NCBI GenBank assembly: GCA_014860745.1
Contig: JACZJC010000076.1
Location: forward strand, 1-64,000
Direction: 5' to 3'
DNA: 64,000 nucleotides
Origin: Anaerolineales bacterium
GTDB lineage: Bacteria; Chloroflexota; Anaerolineae; Anaerolineales; Villigracilaceae
Positions 42,360-54,521 of this stretch are shown here, one piece after another. The position numbers and the translations under genes were made by a program. The notes beneath the pieces were generated by a model. That model saw only the letters and a program-made list of their open reading frames with translations, was not told where the DNA came from and did no database searches. Position 1 is the first letter of the stretch. Every line of letters starts with the position of its first letter.

Positions 42360-42391
42360 GGTTTCCAGCTTTTTCGATTTGAACGCCCGGT

Positions 42392-42397
42392 ATTATA
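42392..42397 (-). promoter_or_regulatory. -10 box of the ABC-F gene
   Basis: TATAAT on the minus strand, 32 bases before the ATG, which has GGAAA upstream; an ordinary leadered transcript. Confidence 0.45.
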
Positions 42398-42448
42398 CGC
42401 TAACCCGCTGTTCGCTCCTGTCCTTGACAGGGCACTTTGTAGTCCCCA

Positions 42449-42490
42449 AAATCCGCCAATTTTCATTATCTTTGCAAAACTGGCGGATTT
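42449..42490. terminator. Inverted repeat at the left edge of the signalling locus
   Basis: AAATCCGCCA (42449-42458) and TGGCGGATTT (42481-42490) pair across 22 bases. It lies between the AT-rich locus and the ABC-F gene and could end minus-strand transcription arriving from 42597. The loop is long for a terminator. Confidence 0.45.
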
Positions 42491-42596
42491 ACAATGCTTT
42501 CAAATATCGTTTATTTTACTCCTTCGAGGAGACTGTAAGCTATAGTTATTTATAACAGCTTATTTCTTATTGTTCATCTTTTCTATCATAAACGGT

Positions 42597-43178
42597 CTAG
42601 GATTTCTTTGCTTCGTGATACTGTTGCCGTAAACCATCCCAAGGTATTGGAGCTTCATTCAGATGGCCAAAGTCCTCTCTCTGCGCCCGCTCAAGTTGAC
42701 GAGAGATTTCGATTTGCTGTTTCCGCCAGACAGGATTCTGCCATACATCGGTTTTTTTCACCTGCGCCTGGGATGTAATCAATAGGCTACGTCCAAACTG
42801 AATCATTAGAATTACAAATCCAACTCCAAAGCAAAAGGCTACAAATACACCCGCGCCTACCCATAAATAACTAGATAATCGAGCCAATTCCAATTCTTGG
42901 GCAGCTTTTTGTTCCTGGAACTGTAATTCTTTTACGGCTTGTTCCTGTTGGGCAAGAAGCTGCTGATTTACTGATAGTTGATAGGCTTCAAGATCAATAG
43001 CATTTTTCTGAGCCTGCAATTCGTTTTGCTGCTTAATAGCTTCTGCTTTAGCGCTATTGGTGATGAAGTTTGTTATATCAGAACCAGTAAGTACCAAGCC
43101 AACTAGGATGCCAATAGCTACTAAAATCAGGATTACTTTGGCTAATCCTTCAAAAGGGGAATTATTGGGTGGAAACAT
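42597..43178 (-). CDS. Two-helix membrane protein with a coiled coil
   Basis: 193 residues. A first membrane helix (11-32) is followed by a long coiled coil rich in Gln and Glu (40-100), a second helix (about 104-130) and a basic cytosolic tail with WQNPVWRKQQIEISRQL. AAAGGAGG lies 8 bases before the ATG. It follows the AT-rich kinase/receiver operon on the same strand but sits 219 bases away beyond a terminator, so it has its own promoter. Its TM-coil-TM layout suggests a membrane scaffold. No family was recognised. Confidence 0.6.
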   Translation of the reverse strand: MFPPNNSPFEGLAKVILILVAIGILVGLVLTGSDITNFITNSAKAEAIKQQNELQAQKNAIDLEAYQLSVNQQLLAQQEQAVKELQFQEQKAAQELELARLSSYLWVGAGVFVAFCFGVGFVILMIQFGRSLLITSQAQVKKTDVWQNPVWRKQQIEISRQLERAQREDFGHLNEAPIPWDGLRQQYHEAKKS

Positions 43179-43267
43179 GGTGTGCCTCCTTTACAAATAT
43201 TCGATACCCGGAATAACTCTTGCACATACTTGATGGTGTTCTTTGTTTCAGTTGCATCATACTTCAA

Positions 43268-43296
43268 CAAAAAGCCGACCATGTGATGGTCAGCTT
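43268..43296 (-). terminator. Terminator of the kinase/receiver operon
   Basis: On the minus strand AGCTGACCAT and ATGGTCGGCT form a hairpin followed by TTTTTG, about 100 bases after the last receiver gene. Confidence 0.75.
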
Positions 43297-43397
43297 CCAA
43301 TTAAGTTCCATACTATCAGTAAATTCTCTATAGATACTCACCTCTCTGTGACATTTTGCATCTCAACATAACAAAGTATTGACAACAATATTACATG

Positions 43398-45365
43398 CTA
43401 CTCTTCTAGCTCCCCACTCGCTTGTAAGCGATATCCTCTTTCCCGTACCGTGAGAATATAACGAGGGCGTTTCGGGTCAGGTTCAATCTCTTCTCGCAGA
43501 CGGCGGATTTCTTGCCGAATACGTTGATTCTGGCTGAAATCCGCGGCATCGTATTTTTCGCTATAGGCGTTTTCCACAATTGTACGATTGCTCACCGCCT
43601 GCCCTTCACGCTCATAGAGGCAACGGAGGAGTTTCAGACGCAACCCCGTCAAAGTAGTGACTCGGTGTTCTCCAATCCAGACTCTCCCATCCTCTTCCAG
43701 ACGTAAGCGCCCCTCGGGTTGGGAGGTGTCTGTCACAGTACCTAATCGTTTTGCCAACATGGCCGCTCCGAGCAGTAAATGGGCGCCTCGCTGGTTATCC
43801 ACTTGGGTTGATAAGACTCCTGGGTCATAGCGGGCTATCGCTCCAACTGTCCAAGCGAGCAGGCCAGCGTAATATGGCAACGGGTCTGATCCTGTTTCTA
43901 TGCTTGCCTGCCGTCGAATTTGTTCGATTAATTCAATGTTCATGCGAAGTTCAGGAATAACATTCCCTTGATCCAGTTTTTCATCAAGTTGGGCTGATTT
44001 CACAAGACATTCTTCAAACTCCAGACAAGCAAGCAAATCTGGTGCTTGGTTGCTATCAAAGCGGATAATTGCTTCTAGACATACATAATCCCACCATTGG
44101 GGTGCCTGATTGGCGTGCAAGAAATCAGTTAACCATGTTCGCCGTTCCGAATCTACCAACACATTGTCTGCTGTAAGTATGCCTGGTGAGACTCGACAAA
44201 CCACTGGCGCATCATATTGAACTAACGGAGCATATACTATCGCAAGAGGATCAGGAAAGGACTGTGCTGCTTGGTGAGGAAAATTAAAGATTATTTGGTC
44301 TTTATTACGCTTGACTTCTATAGCGCCAAGTGTGCGCACTGACTGTATCAGTGATTCTACACGCTGCTCAACATTGACGCGAGGCAAACTCTCCTCATTC
44401 AGGTCTACCCACTGACGGTAAATAGACATCAGATCGTCCGATCCTTGCACCATTTGGCCATGTGAATGCCAAGCCTTAAGAACATTTCCCAACATATTCG
44501 TGAAAGCTGCTTTGAGTGGTTCTTTTTTGCCCAATTGTAGGAGATCATGTAAGGTCTGCACTGTTTCAATATTTGCTCCAGGCAAACCGTAAAGAAGAGC
44601 ACTAAAATTCATTGTTTCTGAATAGTCTCGCAATTGGGTTCCTTGAGCTACCTCTGGGGTCAGCTTTTCCATTTGCAACTTTTCCAATGTCAACAATTTC
44701 CGATCCCCACAAATCAGGATACGGAGGTCAGTTACGCCATCATGAGACAGAGTCATAACTGGCAGGGAAAACCGCTGACGATTGTGCCAAAGTAATCGAC
44801 CAAATCGGATCAACTTGAATTTATAGAAAAGCTGACGAACTAGATCTTCCAATTCACTCGCCCTGTGTATCAGGATGTCAATTGACAAATCAGGCTGCAT
44901 CAGATTGACTAGGTGGGGAAAGGATAAGGGTTCTCGCGGATCCCATTGAATACCAAGATCCCAATTGATGCGTACAAATTGGGCGAAGGCGTCGTCCACT
45001 GCATCAATCATTGCCTGATACTCGTCTTTTTTGGAAATGAAATTCACCGCTGGTGGCAAGCCTTCAAGCACAGGTCCAAGAGCTTCCTTTACTGCCTCTA
45101 CAGTGGGATAGCTGGTCAGAATAATTTTAGGAATTGAACGATAAGCTGGGTCTTTGGCCAGGGTCAAGCCGGATACATCCTTCTCATCGTCATCATTCTG
45201 CATACGTATATCAAGTATGGCGAGATGAAAATATGCTTCGGTTAGCAATCGTTTTGCTTCTATAAAGGTGAAAGCTTTCTGTACCCGATATCCTTGTTTC
45301 TCTAAAAATTCAGCTCGAGTAATCAGAAAATCAGGAGTATTATCGGCAAAAAGGATTTGTTTCAT
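43398..45365 (-). CDS. Receiver / kinase-like pseudo-enzyme / winged-helix regulator
   Basis: 655 residues in three parts. Residues 1-128 are a receiver (Asp8, phosphoacceptor Asp52, Thr84, Lys112) with an acidic NDDDEKD insertion after Asp52. Residues about 165-435 look like an aminoglycoside-phosphotransferase/kinase fold: ILTADNVLVDSERRTWLTDF aligns with the HGDxxxxNILVD...WxIDF catalytic and metal loops, and WWDYVCLE follows. The HGD histidine and Asp appear as Pro and Ile, so catalysis is probably lost. Residues 555-648 are an OmpR/PhoB-type DNA-binding winged helix (LRCLYEREGQAV, RIRQEIRRLREEIE, TVRERGYRL). It starts 7 bases after the membrane receiver and ends the operon. Confidence 0.8.
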   Translation of the reverse strand: MKQILFADNTPDFLITRAEFLEKQGYRVQKAFTFIEAKRLLTEAYFHLAILDIRMQNDDDEKDVSGLTLAKDPAYRSIPKIILTSYPTVEAVKEALGPVLEGLPPAVNFISKKDEYQAMIDAVDDAFAQFVRINWDLGIQWDPREPLSFPHLVNLMQPDLSIDILIHRASELEDLVRQLFYKFKLIRFGRLLWHNRQRFSLPVMTLSHDGVTDLRILICGDRKLLTLEKLQMEKLTPEVAQGTQLRDYSETMNFSALLYGLPGANIETVQTLHDLLQLGKKEPLKAAFTNMLGNVLKAWHSHGQMVQGSDDLMSIYRQWVDLNEESLPRVNVEQRVESLIQSVRTLGAIEVKRNKDQIIFNFPHQAAQSFPDPLAIVYAPLVQYDAPVVCRVSPGILTADNVLVDSERRTWLTDFLHANQAPQWWDYVCLEAIIRFDSNQAPDLLACLEFEECLVKSAQLDEKLDQGNVIPELRMNIELIEQIRRQASIETGSDPLPYYAGLLAWTVGAIARYDPGVLSTQVDNQRGAHLLLGAAMLAKRLGTVTDTSQPEGRLRLEEDGRVWIGEHRVTTLTGLRLKLLRCLYEREGQAVSNRTIVENAYSEKYDAADFSQNQRIRQEIRRLREEIEPDPKRPRYILTVRERGYRLQASGELEE

Positions 45366-45372
45366 ATTCTGC

Positions 45373-46224
45373 TCAATCGCTTTCTGACGGAGTAACTGTC
45401 AATGCTTTTGAATTATGTTGCGCTTTATGATCCCGGAACCCAAACCAATATATTCTTGCTGTTTCTATGACTTTCTCTTTGCTCGTTTCGCGTCTCTCCG
45501 ATGACGTGATTTCATCACATGATGCCAGGAGATTCTCGAAACGTCTTGTCTGCAAGGATTCGGTATGATATTGATCCATTCGCTTGTTGGCAACATCTAC
45601 TCGTTTAAAAAATAAATAGCTCACGGCCTCAGTAACAACACCACCTATTGCACTTACAATGCCAATTGCTTGAATTCCCCACAATGTCAAGGCAGTTCCC
45701 ACAAAGATAATAATAATCCCCATAACAGCGACACTTAGGGATGCCCAATAATTCATTCGGGATTGTTGACGGGCATCAAGATAATCTGTTTTAAGCTGAT
45801 CGGTGATCTCATCCATGGTTTTTTGTAACCAAACACTGCCAAACTCCAAAGCTCTTTGGACTGCACGCAACATGGCCTCTGGGCCTTCCTGTTTGGCAAT
45901 AAAATCAACAGCAGCAGGTAATCCCTCCAGTTGAGGTCTCAGTATATTGCGTACATATTCATAGCTCGGGAATTGTGTCATCATAATCTTCGGCAGCGTT
46001 GGGGTACCTTCTTTTGCAAGGATTAAGCCGCTGGTATCTTTCTCATCGTCATCATCTTCAAGGCGAATATCGATAATCGCAAGATCAATGTTCCCGAATT
46101 CAAGTGCTCTTCTAGCTTCTTCGAGATTTAGAGCAGGTACAACTCGGTACCCCTGTTTTTCTAAGTACTCGCGACGGGTATTTAAAAAATCCTTGTCGTT
46201 ATCTGCAAAAAGAATGGTTATCAT
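45373..46224 (-). CDS. Receiver fused to a two-helix membrane domain (TRADD-N-associated 2TM-like)
   Basis: 283 residues. Residues 1-128 are a receiver paralogous to that of the next gene (Asp8, Asp52, Lys111 and the same DDDDEKD insertion). After a linker, two membrane helices (about 160-181 and 185-206) and the flanking VVTEAVSYLFFKRVDVANKRMDQYH match, from memory, the two-helix domain that accompanies TRADD-N-like modules in predicted cyanobacterial conflict systems. The C-terminus is charged. TAGGAGATA precedes the ATG. A phosphorylation-responsive membrane protein of this type is not one I know as characterised. Confidence 0.7.
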   Translation of the reverse strand: MITILFADNDKDFLNTRREYLEKQGYRVVPALNLEEARRALEFGNIDLAIIDIRLEDDDDEKDTSGLILAKEGTPTLPKIMMTQFPSYEYVRNILRPQLEGLPAAVDFIAKQEGPEAMLRAVQRALEFGSVWLQKTMDEITDQLKTDYLDARQQSRMNYWASLSVAVMGIIIIFVGTALTLWGIQAIGIVSAIGGVVTEAVSYLFFKRVDVANKRMDQYHTESLQTRRFENLLASCDEITSSERRETSKEKVIETARIYWFGFRDHKAQHNSKALTVTPSESD

Positions 46225-46242
46225 AAAGTATCTCCTAAACTT

Positions 46243-46623
46243 TTATTGATGCCTAGATGGTGATTTCTTGGCTAGGGCATCTTTCAATATTGAAGCATAC
46301 TCTCGTTCGCTCAATGACTTTTTTATATAGTCTATAACTCCAGCTTGCAAGGCCTCGCGAGCTCGTCGCCAAGTGGGCGAGGCAGTAAGGACGAGAATGC
46401 GTGCTTGTGGTTGCTGGGCATGTATTCGGGAGACTAGGAGTATCTCGTTGTCAATATAGCTTGTATCTACTATGATTACATCATACTCTTGCTGAAGGAT
46501 TTGTTGCATGGCATTCTTTTCTGGCAGCACCAATAACTCACCAAGATGCATCAGCGTATTCTCCAGATTTGTAAACGAAGGGGTATTCTCTCGATACCCA
46601 ATCAATAAAATATTAATTTGCAC
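46243..46623 (-). CDS. Stand-alone receiver with a degenerate acidic pocket
   Basis: 126 residues. The CheY fold is clear: VIIVDTSYID holds the phosphoacceptor Asp53, ILVLTAS the conserved Thr80 and DYIKKSL Lys101. The acidic pair that binds magnesium is missing, since the first strand reads LLIGYREN. It may be phosphorylated poorly or act as a phosphorylation-independent adaptor. The start is GTG with AAGGAG upstream. It lies 20 bases after the giant kinase and 18 bases before the membrane receiver. Confidence 0.8.
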   Translation of the reverse strand: MQINILLIGYRENTPSFTNLENTLMHLGELLVLPEKNAMQQILQQEYDVIIVDTSYIDNEILLVSRIHAQQPQARILVLTASPTWRRAREALQAGVIDYIKKSLSEREYASILKDALAKKSPSRHQ

Positions 46624-46643
46624 GGGTGTAATGCTCCTTGACG

Positions 46644-49600
46644 TTAAACTTCAAGCGGAAGCCGGATAAACATTGTAGTACCTGCCAAGCTAGTGGAAAA
46701 TATCCCGATTTCCCCACCATAAACTTGCACAATAACTTGTGCCATCAAGAGACCTACGCCCAACCCATGAGAACCTTGTGGCTTTTTGATTGGATTCAAG
46801 AAGAGTTCTGGAATTTCTTCCTTTGGGATACCTTTCCCGTTATCGTGTATGAATATCTCAACTTGGTTACCCTTCCGGCAAGTCTCAATAACAATCTGTT
46901 TCTGACCTGAATTAACCTCAACATAAACGGCATTATCTATCAAGATATCCAGAGCCCGGCGTAACCATTCTGAACTAACCCGAACAGTCAAACTATTATC
47001 AAGTTTCAGGTCTAATCGGAGTACACTTAATTTGTAAGGCTCGTTCTCCCAAAGCTGCTTAACTCGTTCTTGAATCAAACTATTAAGGGATATAGAATCA
47101 ACACCTTCTTCTGAAGAAAGTGGTGGGGTAATCGGTTTCTCCTCAATTTGGCGAGCCAAACGTTGGATCATAGACAGCCGTTCAAGAATATGTGAATAAC
47201 CAGTTGGTAGTGTTGCCTTTGTCAAGTCTGCACGGAGGTGATCAATTTGTTCTACTATTGTGCGTGCATGCTTATCACTTGAGTGACGCCAAGCACTACT
47301 TGCCATCCCCATCCAAGCCAACGCAGTGCGAGAGCCTACTATGCCTTTTGTCTGTTCCAACTCTTTGTACTGCCGAGCATTTTCGATGGCGTTGGACAGT
47401 TGGTCGGCTAAGATTTGAAGTATATCCTTATCCGCTTCTGTGAATGCGCCTGCCTTGATACTTTGAACATCCAACACACCAATGACTCGGTCATGCACAG
47501 TAAGAGGAAGCGCCATCTCAGAACGAGTATTCGGTAGATAAGGGTTATTAAAGAACTCAGAATCCTCACCAACATTGAGGGCTATTCGAGGCTTCCCGCT
47601 CTGCGCTACAAAGCCAACAATACCGACATTAACTTCCAGTTTATATCCTTGTTTAAGCATATTTTGGCCATCCTCAGACGAGGCTGCTTGAAGAACTGCA
47701 TACTGACCTTTAGTATCTAGTAGAAAGATTCCGGCATGATAGAAGGCGAAACGCTCAGAGATTAGTCGTACAGTTGAATTGAGAAGCTCTCCGATATTAA
47801 GAGTGGCAGTAGCATCACGAGCTACTTTGGATGCTGTATCTAGTTGTAGGGCACGATACTCGATCTCGGTGAATAAACGAGCCTTTTCAAGAACGATAGC
47901 CGCCTGTGCAGCTAGTGCCTCCAACGCACGCTGATCTTCTTCGTCGAACACCATATAATCTTGATGTTCAACATTGATAACCCCAATGACTCTATTGCCA
48001 ATTATGATTGGCACAGCCAACTCAGAATGGGTTTGGGGATTCCCCCCAATATAATCCGAATCTCTTGTCACATCATCTACTAATTGAGATTGCTTTGTCC
48101 TAACTGCTCGGCCGGTAACGCCATTTTTTTTGTCTTTTTCTAAGCTAATTTCACCCGCTTGTGCTTGCAGTTGAGGTAACCACTTCTGTGGGTAAGCAGC
48201 TTTGATACTCAGTTTGTTTTCCTCTACAATTGCAAGATCGCTGAAAGTTGCTTGTTCGCCAACACGACCAGTGAAAAGCCATGCTTGCTCTGCAATACGA
48301 TTCAGAATTTCATCAAGGGCCAAGGTGCTGGAAAAGGCCTCACTAGCCTCGTAAAAGGTTTGTAAATATGCCGTTCTTTTAGCTATCTCATCATGCAACT
48401 GAGCAGCGCGAATCGCCACAGCAGCTTGGTGAGCAAATAACTCAATGTCGTCAACCTCCTCGCCAACAAATCGATGAAGTGTGCGGTAGTTCACAAACAA
48501 GACTCCAACTCGTTGTTCTGCTACAAGTAATGGGATTGCAACACATGAGGCGATGTGTTCGTCTTTGGCAAAACGACGATCTCGAAAGAGTGGATCTCGT
48601 TTGATATTGTCAACAATATAAGGCTTATCATTCTGTAACATTCTATAAACAATCGAGTCTTGAAGTACTTTTCCTGCTCTGGAAGCAGCTTCAATATTAT
48701 AGACATCTACTATGGTAGGTGGATGTTCCAATCTACCTGAAAATTGGTTGTAAACATATAGAAGGACCGCATCACAAAATAGCACACTCTTCAAACCTTC
48801 TACGACAGTTTTTAATGTCTGCTGTAGGTTGTTTAGCACGCTCGCTTTGGCAATTATTCTAGTGGTGTTATGTACCCTATTTACCTGCTGTAATAATCTC
48901 GCTTTCTTCAAGGCAAGAGCTGCATGATAAGCAAAAGCTTCGAGGGTTGATTTGTCTGCTTCTTCAAATTGCTGTGGGTACTGGTAATTTATATACAATA
49001 TACCAAGGGTCTCGCCGCCCGTTTTCAAGGCAATTCCTTGATAGGATTGCACACCTAATTTTTTCCGAAACCCACCAGACGAAATATTTAAATGGGAATA
49101 GTTCGTGGCACTATTTACATCAGTTACTTGTAAGTAACTTTGTTCGATCAGAATAGAAGCGACCCCATCCGGACCAGGTTCATCTTCTCTTAATTTTTCC
49201 AGTAAATCTGGAGCGATTCCTTCCGCCACCAGTTCTGAAGGAATAAACACCCCTCGATCGTTATCATAGGGCCAAAGAACGGTCGTGTTCGCTTGTAAAA
49301 CTTCGCGCGCACTTTGTACAATTTGTTTCAAAACTTCTTGGACATCATCAACGCCGGCTAATTTTTGTGCTGCTAGGTGGAGATGTTTCAATTCTTTCAT
49401 CCGCCGATCATTGTCATAGGCAATTGCAACTTGATTTACATAAAAATTCAGAGCATTCACTTCTGGGGGGAAGAATTGATGTGGTTTTTCGAAAAATATC
49501 CACATTGCACCGATAACTTGGCCTCTCAAAAGAAGGGGAAAACAACCTGCAGCTCCAATACCTTCTTTACTCATCTGTTGATAAAGAGATGCTGTCTCCT

Positions 49601-51587
49601 TGTGTGTGTCATTGATAAGAATGGGTTCATTGTTTATCAACATAGAAGTACTAAATGTACTCCTGCGATTTTCATCGATTGTCAGGCGTTCAGGCTGACC
49701 TTCTTTATTTGTTAAAATGATATTCGCCCATTTTGCACCAACTGCAACGCATGCTCTTTCAATAATATCTTTTAGAATATCCTGTGGTTCTTGTAAAGAT
49801 AAGATGCTACTGCTAGCGTCATATAGAGACTTTAGATACTGGTCTTGTGTAATAGCCCAAAATGCGCTGCTCAATTGACCACGCAGGGTCTCATAAACCA
49901 TCCCATCCTTTGGTCCTGCCTCAAATATAGCGATTCCCAATTGATTATTATCGAAATAGAGAGGCTTTACAATCCAAATGTATGAGCCTCCCTGTGGAAT
50001 AACATTCTTGGGTACTAATTGACGAGATGAAAAATGTTGCTCACCGAGTTTTGATTCGATATGCCCATCCTTATATGCCATGACCAGTCGCCTCTGTTCA
50101 AGTGGCGTTGCGGGATTCTCATATAAAGAAATGTAACAGCTAGAAATTTTCAATCGTTGCAGCCCATCTGTTAAGATAGTTATCAACTCATCCACATTTG
50201 AGATAGTAACCAAAGCCTGATTAATTTCACTCAATATCACGTACCATTGTTCCGACTGCAATCTGCGATATCCTTCTGCTCTTCGGGTTCTTTCGGTAAT
50301 CATTACCCGGCCTTGTTGAAAGATATCCTCAATAAAAAATAATTTTTGATCTTCACTGATGTGGGGCAATATATTCCGGCGGATTAAGGAAATAACCTCC
50401 TGCCACAAAGACACATCACCATCTGTCAGTGTCACCTGACGCAGAATTGTATCTAGGGCTGCCAAGAAGGTGCCTGTTCGCTCTCCTATTAACTCGGTAT
50501 AAAAAGCATTTAATAATTGTTGTACCTGGTCAGGAATGGTATCGGTAGAGAGATTTGGTATCTTTTCCCGAATCTCAACTAAAATCCTTTCACGGCTTGC
50601 AGCGAGGGCAGTCTTAATTGTTGTACCTGCTTTTGTTATCAACCCTGTTTTGGCTCGTTCAACTGCTGGATCCAAACACCCACATGACTCTCGGATTTTC
50701 ACCTCTGTAGACAGTTTTTTTTTCTCTAGAAATTTTTCTTTACCTAATAAAGCAAACAACATATCTGTTGCTTGCTTACCTTGTTGATATGCTGGATAGT
50801 GCACTGTGGTAAGTGATGGTGTAACGTCTCTTGCCCCATCTATATTATCGAATCCTACTATCGCTAACTTCCCAGGTATATCTATGTTACGTTGTTGAAG
50901 AGCTTGAAAGGCACCAAGCGCCATATTATCATTTGCTGCTACCAGAACATCAAGTTTCGCTTTTTGCACATCTAGCAGAGTGTCAACCGCAGATACCCCC
51001 GAAGGCAACATAAAATCACCGAATACAACAAGGTTTTCGTCGAACGGAATGCCTTGTTCAGCCAACACATTTTTGTAGATCCGATATCTTTGTTCTGCAT
51101 CTGGATTGTCTTTCGGTCCACGAATAAACCCAATACGACGGTGTCTATGATGCTGAATTAGATGGGAAAGCAGTTCACGCATACCCTTCTCGTTATCTAC
51201 TATTATGGATGGGATATTTTGTAGCGACATGACAGTCGTTACGATTGGTAAAGGGCTGAATTGCTCGACAAAATTCCTAAATTCCTCTCGGTTTATAAAA
51301 CTCCCCAGAGTCCCGCTAATAATCAAACCATCGACATTATTTATACTTGCAAGATTATAAACACTGTTTTGTAAGCTCTCGAATTCGTTTAGATGTGAAT
51401 CGCTGAGTGTTCCACCCGCAAAGCAGAGCAAGTTGGCACCTCGTTCCTGAACTGCACCAGCCACACCAGACAATACTTCAGCTTGATATCCGCCCTTGCC
51501 CACAGCAGTCTCAAGTAATAGGCCAATTGTTGGATGTTGTTTCGATCGACCGATTGGTTTTCTTACTTCAACGAATTCATTTTTCAT
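46644..51587 (-). CDS. LacI-type sensor / multi-GAF / histidine kinase
   Basis: 1647 residues with no signal peptide or membrane helix. Residues about 15-305 are a LacI/GalR-type sugar-binding fold (SGVAGAVQERGANLL, GLIISGTL, IGFIRGP, ANDNMALGAFQAL, IVGFDNIDGARDVTPSLTTV) lacking the helix-turn-helix, and end in ESCGC (300-304). A helical region follows, then about six GAF domains (445-585, 590-725, 735-897, 905-1063, 1078-1235, 1248-1405). WRHSSDKH holds the likely phosphohistidine His1435, then come LIDNAV (Asn1552), HDNGKG and GLGVGL of the ATPase. It heads the operon of three receivers; CAAGG precedes the ATG. Confidence 0.85.
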   Translation of the reverse strand: MKNEFVEVRKPIGRSKQHPTIGLLLETAVGKGGYQAEVLSGVAGAVQERGANLLCFAGGTLSDSHLNEFESLQNSVYNLASINNVDGLIISGTLGSFINREEFRNFVEQFSPLPIVTTVMSLQNIPSIIVDNEKGMRELLSHLIQHHRHRRIGFIRGPKDNPDAEQRYRIYKNVLAEQGIPFDENLVVFGDFMLPSGVSAVDTLLDVQKAKLDVLVAANDNMALGAFQALQQRNIDIPGKLAIVGFDNIDGARDVTPSLTTVHYPAYQQGKQATDMLFALLGKEKFLEKKKLSTEVKIRESCGCLDPAVERAKTGLITKAGTTIKTALAASRERILVEIREKIPNLSTDTIPDQVQQLLNAFYTELIGERTGTFLAALDTILRQVTLTDGDVSLWQEVISLIRRNILPHISEDQKLFFIEDIFQQGRVMITERTRRAEGYRRLQSEQWYVILSEINQALVTISNVDELITILTDGLQRLKISSCYISLYENPATPLEQRRLVMAYKDGHIESKLGEQHFSSRQLVPKNVIPQGGSYIWIVKPLYFDNNQLGIAIFEAGPKDGMVYETLRGQLSSAFWAITQDQYLKSLYDASSSILSLQEPQDILKDIIERACVAVGAKWANIILTNKEGQPERLTIDENRRSTFSTSMLINNEPILINDTHKETASLYQQMSKEGIGAAGCFPLLLRGQVIGAMWIFFEKPHQFFPPEVNALNFYVNQVAIAYDNDRRMKELKHLHLAAQKLAGVDDVQEVLKQIVQSAREVLQANTTVLWPYDNDRGVFIPSELVAEGIAPDLLEKLREDEPGPDGVASILIEQSYLQVTDVNSATNYSHLNISSGGFRKKLGVQSYQGIALKTGGETLGILYINYQYPQQFEEADKSTLEAFAYHAALALKKARLLQQVNRVHNTTRIIAKASVLNNLQQTLKTVVEGLKSVLFCDAVLLYVYNQFSGRLEHPPTIVDVYNIEAASRAGKVLQDSIVYRMLQNDKPYIVDNIKRDPLFRDRRFAKDEHIASCVAIPLLVAEQRVGVLFVNYRTLHRFVGEEVDDIELFAHQAAVAIRAAQLHDEIAKRTAYLQTFYEASEAFSSTLALDEILNRIAEQAWLFTGRVGEQATFSDLAIVEENKLSIKAAYPQKWLPQLQAQAGEISLEKDKKNGVTGRAVRTKQSQLVDDVTRDSDYIGGNPQTHSELAVPIIIGNRVIGVINVEHQDYMVFDEEDQRALEALAAQAAIVLEKARLFTEIEYRALQLDTASKVARDATATLNIGELLNSTVRLISERFAFYHAGIFLLDTKGQYAVLQAASSEDGQNMLKQGYKLEVNVGIVGFVAQSGKPRIALNVGEDSEFFNNPYLPNTRSEMALPLTVHDRVIGVLDVQSIKAGAFTEADKDILQILADQLSNAIENARQYKELEQTKGIVGSRTALAWMGMASSAWRHSSDKHARTIVEQIDHLRADLTKATLPTGYSHILERLSMIQRLARQIEEKPITPPLSSEEGVDSISLNSLIQERVKQLWENEPYKLSVLRLDLKLDNSLTVRVSSEWLRRALDILIDNAVYVEVNSGQKQIVIETCRKGNQVEIFIHDNGKGIPKEEIPELFLNPIKKPQGSHGLGVGLLMAQVIVQVYGGEIGIFSTSLAGTTMFIRLPLEV

Positions 51588-51704
51588 TAGATAACCTTGA
51601 TGATTTGTTAGTTATTTTCATAAACTGAGACATGAAACTAAAAGTCAATAGGATAAGAAATATTTGTAATATACCACTTCAAAATCGCAGTTATGTTACA
51701 TCTG

Positions 51705-51722
51705 TGTGACGTTAAAGTCACA
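51705..51722. promoter_or_regulatory. Perfect TGTGAC-N6-GTCACA palindrome upstream of the kinase operon
   Basis: TGTGAC and GTCACA flank GTTAAA in the 261-base AT-rich gap upstream of the kinase gene, 118 bases before its ATG. The arms resemble a CRP/FNR half-site, but the central spacing is two bases longer. It may equally be the site of the winged-helix regulator encoded in the operon. The rest of the gap holds nothing I recognise. Confidence 0.5.
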
Positions 51723-51848
51723 AGCAATCTTAGACAGCAATATTGTCGAAGTGCAGGCATATTCAAAGCTCAATTTGGATGATTCTATACAAAGTTCAAT
51801 TATCTTAACCAGATCACTACCCCTTGGTCTCAAATTGTTCAGGCGGTT

Positions 51849-52691
51849 TCATTTCTCTTCATCGGTATCAATGTGACCCGGCTTCTCCTTGCCCAACTCC
51901 AGTGAACGTTGATACGCCGCCCACACCGCGCGGGAGATGGCCGTGCGGAAGCCCGCTTTCTCCAAATAATACAGCGCCTCGGCAGACGTGCCGCCCGGCG
52001 ACGTGACTTGATTCCGCAAAGTGGCGGGATGCCTGCTTGCACCCTGATAATAGGAAGCGGAACCTTTGATGGTCTGCAAAACCAATTGCTCGGCGATGCG
52101 GCGGGGGAATCCCATGTGCACACCAGCATCGATCAAGGCTTCGGTGAAGAGGAAAACATAAGCAGGACCGGAACCCGATAACGCAGTAGCCATATCGAGA
52201 TAGGATTCGTCCTCCACAAAAACTTCTTCGCCCAAGGCGCCAAGGATGGCACGAGTCATTTCCTGCTGTTCTTCTGTCACTTCTTTGGATGCAGTCCAGA
52301 CTGTGATGCCTTCGCCAATTTGACCGGGCGTATTCGGCATCGAGCGGACAATGGCTTTGTGTTTCAACCCCGTGCTGATCTTCTTGATGGTCGCGCCCGC
52401 GATGATAGACAAGACCAGCGCATCGGGTCGAATCCCTTTGAGACCCTTCATCACTTCGGTGAGCCGCTGCGGTTTGACCGAGAGCACCACCACATCCGCT
52501 TCATGGATGGTGAAGGCGTTATCTGTAGAAACCTTGATGCCATATTTTTTATGCAGTTCCCCGCCGCGTTCTTCACGCGGACCGCTGGCTGTGATATTTT
52601 TTGCGTCCGCAAGTTTTTTGCGCAACAAGCCTGCGATCATGGCCTCCGCCATCACGCCGGGACCGATGAAAGCAATTTTCTTTTTAAGCAT
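51849..52691 (-). CDS. proC: Pyrroline-5-carboxylate reductase
   Basis: 280 residues. IAFIGPGVMAEAMIAGLL is the NAD(P) site, VVLSVKPQ and MPNTPGQIGEG the middle motifs and MATALSGSGPAYVF with TSPGGTSAEALYYLE the C-terminal dimer and active-site signature of ProC, which performs the last step of proline synthesis. AGGAGA lies 5 bases before the ATG. It is the last gene of the minus-strand yebC-ruvC-ruvA-DUF402-proC run. The C-terminal tail (GKEKPGHIDTDEEK) is an extension of low conservation. Confidence 0.95.
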   Translation of the reverse strand: MLKKKIAFIGPGVMAEAMIAGLLRKKLADAKNITASGPREERGGELHKKYGIKVSTDNAFTIHEADVVVLSVKPQRLTEVMKGLKGIRPDALVLSIIAGATIKKISTGLKHKAIVRSMPNTPGQIGEGITVWTASKEVTEEQQEMTRAILGALGEEVFVEDESYLDMATALSGSGPAYVFLFTEALIDAGVHMGFPRRIAEQLVLQTIKGSASYYQGASRHPATLRNQVTSPGGTSAEALYYLEKAGFRTAISRAVWAAYQRSLELGKEKPGHIDTDEEK

Positions 52692-53837: not shown

Positions 53838-54521
53838 TTATTTCTTCATGGTTTTATCCATGAGTTTGATGGCCCAATCCAAAAATACCTGTTTGAGGTT
53901 TTGAGGATCAAACGGTTTAAGCATTTTTACAGGCCACCGTTCGATTTCGTTGGGAAAATTTTCACTGCGATTAAGGGCAATGGCAAACCAGTAAGGATCA
54001 AAGCCTGTATCTTTTTGCGCTGCCTGTTCCAGCAATAATTCGGGCGATTCCTTTTGCAGAAGGAAGTACAAATCCACGGCGTCACGAGGTTCAGCACGCC
54101 CAAAATAGGCAAGTAATTTATCCACCCGCAGGTCTGAATAGTCATTGATATAGATGCCTTCGTTTGAAAGAACCGGCGACTCAAACCGATAGGGTGAATC
54201 AAGAGCTAGGTCTATTTTCAGACTTTCCCGCTCATTTTCCACCAACAACTCAACAAAGGTTGCAAAACGGCGGATAACCTTGAGTGAAAGTCCTTTATTC
54301 TGGCAGGCAGATTCAATTTGATAGGATATAGGCAGGATTAAATTTTCCGTGCCTGTAAAATAATCCAAGTCAAAGGAAAGACGGTGACCAAGATAATATT
54401 CTGAGAGCGCGGTTCCACCTGCCAGATAAAACTGATCCTTGTCAGGCATTCCGGCAAGGATTTCCATAAATTCTTTCTGCAGGGAAGTTAGCGTACCAAA
54501 TCCCTTAATTCCCTCTGACAT
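53838..54521 (-). CDS. AbiEii-type nucleotidyltransferase toxin
   Basis: 227 residues. FYLAGGTALSEYYLGHRLSFDLDYFT holds the GG-x-ALS and DxD (Asp51, Asp53) motifs of the nucleotidyltransferase AbiEii/AbiGii/MenA toxin family, LKIDLALD supplies a third acidic residue, and YINDYSDLRVDKLLAYFGRAEPRDAVDLYFLL is the conserved C-terminal half. Toxins of this kind block tRNA or translation in type IV systems. Its start overlaps the end of the small partner gene. Both sit between ruvC and ruvA on the same strand. Confidence 0.85.
   Translation of the reverse strand: MSEGIKGFGTLTSLQKEFMEILAGMPDKDQFYLAGGTALSEYYLGHRLSFDLDYFTGTENLILPISYQIESACQNKGLSLKVIRRFATFVELLVENERESLKIDLALDSPYRFESPVLSNEGIYINDYSDLRVDKLLAYFGRAEPRDAVDLYFLLQKESPELLLEQAAQKDTGFDPYWFAIALNRSENFPNEIERWPVKMLKPFDPQNLKQVFLDWAIKLMDKTMKK

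Follow-up and report, generated by a model that had tools for sequence, protein, structure and literature searches.

A histidine kinase cassette with modules of predicted conflict systems in an Anaerolineales bacterium

The cassette and its surroundings

For the present analysis we used a window of 64,000 nucleotides from an Anaerolineales bacterium (positions 1 to 64,000 of contig JACZJC010000076.1, assembly GCA_014860745.1). It contains four closely spaced minus-strand genes (Table 1), which had been described in an earlier note and could be recovered as such. The genes encode a histidine kinase (K), a pseudo-receiver (P), a receiver with a two-helix membrane domain (R3) and a receiver joined to a kinase-like domain and a winged helix (R4). 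K and P are separated by 20 bases, P and R3 by 18 and R3 and R4 by 7. The GC content of the cassette is 0.432 compared to 0.517 in the remaining window, in agreement with the AT-rich island proposed before. An invariably higher AT content of such cassettes compared to their flanks was rejected as a general rule, as 7 of 15 other cassettes (L072, L073, L077, L079, L080, L131, L132) do not show it.

Table 1. Coordinates of the cassette genes and their domains in the window
Feature	Position	Strand	Remarks
K, histidine kinase, 1647 aa	46644..51587	minus	LacI-type ligand module, GAF, HATPase_c
LacI/Peripla_BP module of K	50682..51530	minus	residues 20-302; this copy only among annotated loci
HATPase_c of K	46650..46970	minus	residues 1540-1646; Pfam
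P, pseudo-receiver, 126 aa	46243..46623	minus	Gly-Tyr in place of the acidic pair
R3, receiver and two-helix membrane domain, 283 aa	45373..46224	minus	D8-N9, D52, T83, K111
CyanoTRADDas_TM (PF20712), two-helix domain of R3	45577..45774	minus	Pfam and hydropathy
R4, receiver, TCAD9-type pseudokinase (by homology) and OmpR-type winged helix, 655 aa	43398..45365	minus	
TCAD9-type pseudokinase (by homology) of R4	43701..44969	minus	~residues 133-555; PGILTADNVLVD replaces canonical HGDLxxxNILVD
Trans_reg_C winged helix of R4	43425..43658	minus	residues 570-647; Pfam
Stretch from presumed ABC-F gene to proC	42360..51848	.	contains the cassette and a 193-aa ORF

According to Pfam, the neighbouring genes encode a protein with two ABC ATPase domains (ABC_tran twice and ABC_tran_Xtn), which we take to be ABC-F, a P5C reductase (proC), a DUF402 protein and RuvA. 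The flanks were correctly described as housekeeping genes but not as a notably gene-poor tract, since the intergenic gaps are short (261, 219 and 237 bases) and a 193-aa ORF (42597-43178, minus strand) is located in the same insertion. No Pfam family above the cut-off was found for this ORF; a coiled coil and a pair of hydrophobic segments are visible by eye. Directly past ruvA, ~2.3 kb from K, an AbiEii-type nucleotidyltransferase gene of the toxin-antitoxin type is located (53838-54521, minus strand; Pfam AbiEii, E 2.1e-12).

The cassette is absent from 10 of 14 regions of the same genus, in which the ABC-F gene lies near proC (97 to ~2,900 bases); a site was counted as empty if no match to K, R3 or R4 covered over half of the query. 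The other four regions are uninformative, either because the ABC-F gene was not found in the stretch covered (L196, L200) or because they end too soon (L207, L208). The other copy of the cassette in the genus, in genome G011, is located in different surroundings. No transposase family was detected among the five scanned ORFs. Direct repeats at the boundaries comprise 9 bases at most and were judged to be due to chance and not a mark of insertion.

The presence of a LacI-type ligand module in the kinase was confirmed (Peripla_BP_3, E 4.5e-28), whereas Pfam recognises five GAF stretches instead of the about six that were counted before. The HATPase_c domain was matched with E 1.8e-16. No HisKA-type Pfam family was found in K at E <=1; its DHp region, which is unrecognised by Pfam, contains a W-R-H motif with His 1435. 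This His is conserved in all 24 aligned kinase C-termini. K therefore has both the conserved His and the ATP-binding domain of a two-component kinase. A second copy of the LacI module was found neither by a profile search of the annotated loci nor by Pfam in five other kinases. In L035 (362-2596) and L072 (11800-14094) K is immediately preceded by another kinase, in which a receiver, a GAF match and two S1 RNA-binding stretches were found, and genes of similar size occupy this position in several further cassettes.

R3 shows a Response_reg domain (E 2.1e-9) and a match to CyanoTRADDas_TM (PF20712) with E 1e-16 and 61.2 bits (cut-off 24.3), covering profile positions 2-68 of 68. Its hydrophobic stretches are confined to residues 157-206. 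The guess that this protein carries the TRADD-N-associated 2TM domain was right, given the PF20712 match, and the family is indeed named after predicted conflict systems, to which the membrane domain had been thought to point. TRADD-N itself was not matched by Pfam among the five scanned genes. AlphaFold models of R3 and R4, each with one homologue, reached a mean pLDDT of 46 and 36 and were unusable.

Recurrence in relatives and sister cassettes

A search for R4 in 61 genomes identified full-length copies in four (the window's genome G000, G011 at 61%, G041 and G049 at 35%); within the genus, 2 of 37 genomes contain one. With an alignment of five R4 members, 32 of 396 genomes of the class were matched at 1e-25, two of which (G166, G421) match the winged helix only. 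In a sample of the phylum, 8 of 400 genomes showed an R4 match at 1e-30, including the window's genome. In all remaining seven a kinase is located 5' of the receiver-TCAD9 gene.

In total, 47 loci with R4-type genes were annotated (35 loci, L131 to L136, L170, L174, L209, L210, L211 and L100). The upstream region is cut by contig ends in nine of them (L040, L046, L078, L082, L090, L091, L094, L098, L210). Of the 38 loci whose upstream sequence is visible, 37 have a kinase upstream. The loci are not all independent because several genomes contribute more than one. The kinase is located directly 5' or separated by P and R3, and in L135 by two other ORFs. The kinase match is weak (<50 bits) in L095, L133 to L136, L174 and L209, and the kinase of L071 was found by a separate annotation outside the main gene-chain listing. 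The exception is L100, in which the receiver gene of the family is cut at the contig end and no kinase lies directly 5'.

The complete order K, P, R3 with the two-helix domain and R4 was found in the window, in L034 (located on the same contig as L009) and in L035, where K and P are fused to a single protein of 2552 aa. In L046, P, R3 with the two-helix domain and R4 are visible up to the contig end. The fixed four-gene set is the exception among the loci; the wider core consists of the kinase and receiver-TCAD9, to which P and R3 are added, the latter in some loci lacking the two-helix domain. Nevertheless, the same order recurs elsewhere, including in several families. Conserved co-occurrence had been set as the test of whether the four genes are unrelated fragments of ordinary two-component systems, which they are not, as they recur in the same order.

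R3 with the two-helix domain was also detected in L040 and L097, the match of the latter being slightly under the cut-off, and both receivers have lost the Lys. R3 lacks the two-helix domain in L036, L074, L080 and L099 and is absent from L071, L072, L073, L075, L076, L077 and L079, among others. In L169 a kinase is accompanied by a receiver that matches the two-helix profile weakly but shows no Pfam match. A separation of the R3 and R4 receivers into two clean clades was supported in part: most R3 and most R4 receivers separate in a tree of modest support, while R3 of L040 and L097 fall elsewhere. In L038 (2197-3772) a CyanoTRADDas_TM protein, in which no receiver was detected, adjoins a gene with a weak match to the kinase C-terminus and is perhaps a split version of R3.

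The divergence of the genes is correlated between loci. For R4 and K a Mantel r of 0.61 was obtained (23 loci, 0 of 2000 permutations as high), for K and P 0.86 (10 loci, 1 of 2000) and for R4 and P 0.69 (10 loci, 8 of 2000), all values being uncorrected for species phylogeny.

Sister cassettes were collected with a receiver profile, which at 1e-17 matched 54 of 396 genomes, many with ordinary receivers. L167 and L168 show the order AlaRS-like gene, K, P, receiver, receiver-SLFN_AlbA_2 and receiver-CHAT; L168 additionally contains a kinase end and a second receiver-CHAT gene. In L099 the order is AlaRS-like gene, K, P, receiver, receiver-TCAD9 and receiver-CHAT, and the last two genes overlap by one base. 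All four of the caspase-like CHAT domains contain GHG and a later Cys, presumably the CHAT dyad. Receivers at the same operon position thus tether either CHAT or Schlafen AlbA_2, which is best explained by the receiver being a putative exchangeable effector-coupling domain. The AlaRS-like core genes adjoin K on its 5' side (L167:3629-4969, L168:17550-18893, L099:4083-5423). They were identified by Pfam in L167 and L168 and by BLAST in L099 and could possibly be translation-linked sensors.

Other modules were found next to the cassettes as well. In L074 a TCAD9-bDLD1-EAD7 gene is located immediately 5' of K, and in L170 an EAD7-receiver gene, with EAD7 under the Pfam cut-off, follows receiver-TCAD9. 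In three large genomes of the phylum (L134:3200-9232, L135, L136) a SBP_bac_5 gene is located 3' of the K-REC-TCAD9 pair. A permease and an oligo_HPY ATPase were confirmed by Pfam in L134 only. This oligopeptide-transporter context looks like ordinary nutrient signalling.

Residue states of the pseudo-receiver and the pseudokinase

P of the window is a partial Response_reg domain (E 1.1e-8). As described before, it is a receiver without its acidic pair. Asp, Thr and Lys are present. A readable N-terminus was available for 17 copies, namely 16 of the 17 copies of the first alignment (L046 lacks the N-terminus) and L209, and none of them contains the complete set of phosphoryl-transfer residues. 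The acidic pair is not intact in 12 of the 16 readable copies of the first alignment; in L071 to L074 one of its two residues is kept. Conversely, P of L099, L167, L168 and one copy of L170 has kept the acidic pair but carries Ser instead of the phospho-Asp. In L035 the acidic pair is lost and the phospho-Asp is replaced by Asn, and the weak P of L209 shows Asp-Tyr at the acidic pair and Ser at the phospho-Asp. The phospho-Asp is retained in 12 of the 17 aligned copies, including the window copy. The earlier proposal of P as a phosphorylated output or buffer is unsupported, as the required residues are missing from every copy with a readable N-terminus. The fusion in L035 places P at the kinase. 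Taken with the 0 of 17 complete residue sets, this suggests that P is best read as an adaptor rather than a phosphate buffer. A profile search does not prove a restriction of P to these cassettes, since its 14 strong places were without exception profile seeds, no more than ~11 candidates were scored per genome, and the weak P of L209 was absent among the matches listed.

In contrast to P, which fails in 17 of 17 readable copies, the R4 receivers contain the acidic pair, the phospho-Asp, Thr/Ser and Lys expected of a receiver. D8, D52, T84 and K112 are present in 16 of 16 copies, and the second acidic residue is Asn in 14 and Asp in two. A mixed set of 20 receivers from R3, R4 and one receiver-CHAT protein showed the first Asp and the phospho-Asp in all 20, Thr in 19 and Ser in one, and Lys in 18. 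In R4 of the window the Response_reg match is under the Pfam cut-off (E 1.5e-5), and the winged helix is matched by Trans_reg_C with E 4.7e-14.

The middle domain of the window's R4 gave no match to TCAD9 (PF19974) at E <=10, nor was a TCAD9 match found anywhere in the window's genome. In a scan at E <=10, two out of five family members were matched, the best with 8.2e-14. Another scan covered seven R4-type proteins. Among these, the curated cut-off is passed by L036 (8.2e-14), L046 (2.1e-19), L080 (8.4e-14) and L084 (8.7e-30). L071, which is 55% identical to R4 of the window, shows E 7.6e-9, under the curated cut-off, and in L035 and L040 a match is absent at 0.001. By homology to these matching relatives (L036, L046, L080, L084, L071), the domain is classified as TCAD9-type. 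A solved-structure search with the R4 profile matched 154 sequences; among the 60 listed, only the receiver or the winged helix was aligned.

Canonical TCAD9 copies from the same genomes contain HGD in 8 of 8 aligned cases (nine loci, L130 being left out for lack of an alignable stretch). Of seven such proteins scanned with Pfam, some add AAA, protein kinase, EAD7 or bDLD1 domains. In contrast, none of the 19 copies that combine receiver, TCAD9 and winged helix has retained the catalytic Asp (window, L034, L035, L036, L040, L046, L071 to L080, L083, L131, L132; in L083 the winged-helix match reaches 20 bits and is weak), and Arg is the commonest substitute (9 of 19). This confirms the description of R4 as a kinase-like domain without catalytic Asp joined to a winged helix. 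The Asp is kept in 16 of 16 aligned cassette copies without winged helix (L084 to L089, L092 to L096, L099, L133, L134, L170, L174). Loss of the Asp therefore accompanies the fusion to a DNA-binding domain. Since the copies that lost it share descent, this may have been a single event. In L081 the Asp is kept but not the His, its end being cut by the contig, and L097 is cut before the HGD motif. Judged by these residues, the domain of R4 is a relative of TCAD9 by descent and not an active kinase. In L084, L089 and L096 a separate protein downstream carries Trans_reg_C at its end, with ATPase matches under the Pfam cut-offs. A Band_7/SPFH gene was observed 3' of R4 in L036 (13368-14318) and L079 (11427-12209).

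Proposed function, alternatives and relation to known systems

Gene order, domain identities, residue states and the occupied and empty site are observed directly; from these we infer the phosphoflow, the role of P, the membrane action and the biological purpose. We interpret the cassette as a signalling operon with several outputs, which is gated by a histidine kinase and assembled from modules of conflict systems. It would likely serve a thresholded stress, defence or cell-fate response, and we assign a probability of about 0.53 to this reading. K would sense ligands via its LacI-type and GAF domains and autophosphorylate on the conserved His. As residues and synteny suggest, K would pass phosphate on to R3 and R4, whose receivers have kept their catalytic residues in the window. 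P may dock on K without being phosphorylated and, as an adaptor or gate, set the activation threshold. Phosphorylated R4 would bind DNA through the winged helix, the dead TCAD9 domain possibly acting as a ligand- or partner-binding switch, while phosphorylated R3 would assemble and act on the membrane via the two-helix domain. In the sister cassettes, receivers would couple CHAT or Schlafen AlbA_2 effectors interchangeably. Of the earlier idea of one phosphodonor with three outputs, the kinase, the several receivers and the transcription and membrane outputs stand, but P drops out as the third output, as it is a pseudo-receiver.

A conflict or cell-fate role of the cassette seems plausible from these sequence features. 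The transporter context of L134 to L136, the PADLOC results (best match for five proteins no better than E 0.014), the optional nature of R3 and the exception L100 speak against it. Alternatively, the cassette could be a two-component system of an ordinary kind, albeit elaborate, which senses nutrients or stress and has no role in conflict or cell death. In that case, R4 would be a regulator of the OmpR family into which the relic of a kinase was inserted, and R3 would localise signalling as a membrane-anchored receiver. Such a system would agree with the LacI-type module in K, the housekeeping neighbours, the absence of a PADLOC match of use and the SBP_bac_5 genes (with oligopeptide-transporter genes in L134) after K-REC-TCAD9 in three genomes of the phylum. 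However, CyanoTRADDas_TM, CHAT, Schlafen AlbA_2, TCAD9, bDLD1 and EAD7 occur within or adjoining the cassettes, the distribution is patchy, with full-length R4 in so few genomes of the genus, and other genomes of the genus have an empty site. We consider this explanation quite possible, though not probable.

A further-reaching proposal, which we regard as tentative and rather doubtful, is a class of bacterial operons for cell fate or immunity. Their histidine kinase would be gated by a pseudo-receiver of its own and would release receiver-tethered effectors, resulting in phosphorelay-controlled programmed cell death. The effectors would be the membrane hairpin, the CHAT protease, Schlafen AlbA_2 and the pseudokinase-winged helix, and the receiver would take the adaptor role held elsewhere by effector-associated or Death-like domains.

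It is improbable that the receivers are kinase-independent, nucleotide-responsive switches and that K is coincidental. A passage of PMC8195603 proposes such switching for the receivers of iSTAND2 and TERNS3, but here all loci whose upstream sequence is visible, except one, have a kinase upstream, a fusion of kinase and P exists in one locus, and the phosphoryl-transfer residues are kept in every aligned R4 receiver. Some single-domain receivers serve as phosphate sinks. With this precedent and the phospho-Asp retained in most copies, P might be thought to drain K, but an intact acidic pair and the Asp occur together in no readable copy and the Asp has changed to Ser or Asn in the six copies described above, so that a sink appears very improbable. 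A chance neighbourhood of unrelated two-component fragments, as the lack of R3 and P in many relatives might suggest, is already contradicted by the recurring gene order in several families, the gene fusion and the correlated divergence, and can practically be dismissed.

With multi-GAF-kinase/OmpR two-component systems the cassette shares HATPase_c, the conserved His, receivers with Asp, Thr and Lys and the OmpR-type winged helix. It differs in that its DHp is unrecognised by the Pfam HisKA families, that many cassettes include an adjacent pseudo-receiver, that receiver and winged helix are separated by a pseudokinase, and that receivers are fused to a membrane domain or, in relatives, to CHAT or Schlafen AlbA_2. 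TCAD9, EAD7 and receivers are modules in common with vWA-MoxR ternary/VMAP, iSTAND and TERNS3 systems. TCAD9 and EAD7 are named as vWA-MoxR-VMAP-associated in a part of PMC10910872, and receivers occur among the effectors of these predicted conflict systems according to passages of PMC7159879 and PMC8195603. In the former, a passage on vWA-associated effectors states that no histidine kinase domains were found. The cassette, in contrast, has a histidine kinase, and no MoxR or vWA families were reported for the five scanned genes or for seven flanking genes.

Among the open-access papers listed in literature searches, none was recognised as dealing with histidine kinase cassettes with TCAD9, CyanoTRADDas_TM or receiver-CHAT, in line with the earlier note, which knew of no described system with this gene set. 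Whereas these passages of PMC7159879 and PMC8195603 present receivers without histidine kinases in predicted conflict systems, the same kinds of modules are located behind a kinase here. The combination of a giant sensor kinase with a defective receiver, a membrane protein and a pseudokinase that binds DNA, with caspase-like or Schlafen parts in sister cassettes, may represent an unreported bacterial route which places cell-fate or defence-type proteins under sensor-kinase control. Such cassettes suggest a connection of classical environmental sensing with apoptosis-like effectors that can be put to the test. In addition, they provide a natural series of kinase-like domains, from intact to dead, which are located between a receiver and a DNA-binding domain, as well as a pseudo-receiver that has been damaged by two distinct kinds of residue loss.

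Cyanobacterial TRADD-N systems have the two-helix PF20712 domain in common with R3. In contrast to these, no TRADD-N was matched in the five scanned genes, and the two-helix domain is joined to a receiver, behind a kinase and in Chloroflexota. Among plasmid records, tblastn gave no place for R4 and none covering 80% of the query for receiver-SLFN or receiver-CHAT. For R3, one place was found on a Nostoc carneum plasmid, which matches residues 134-261 with 26%.
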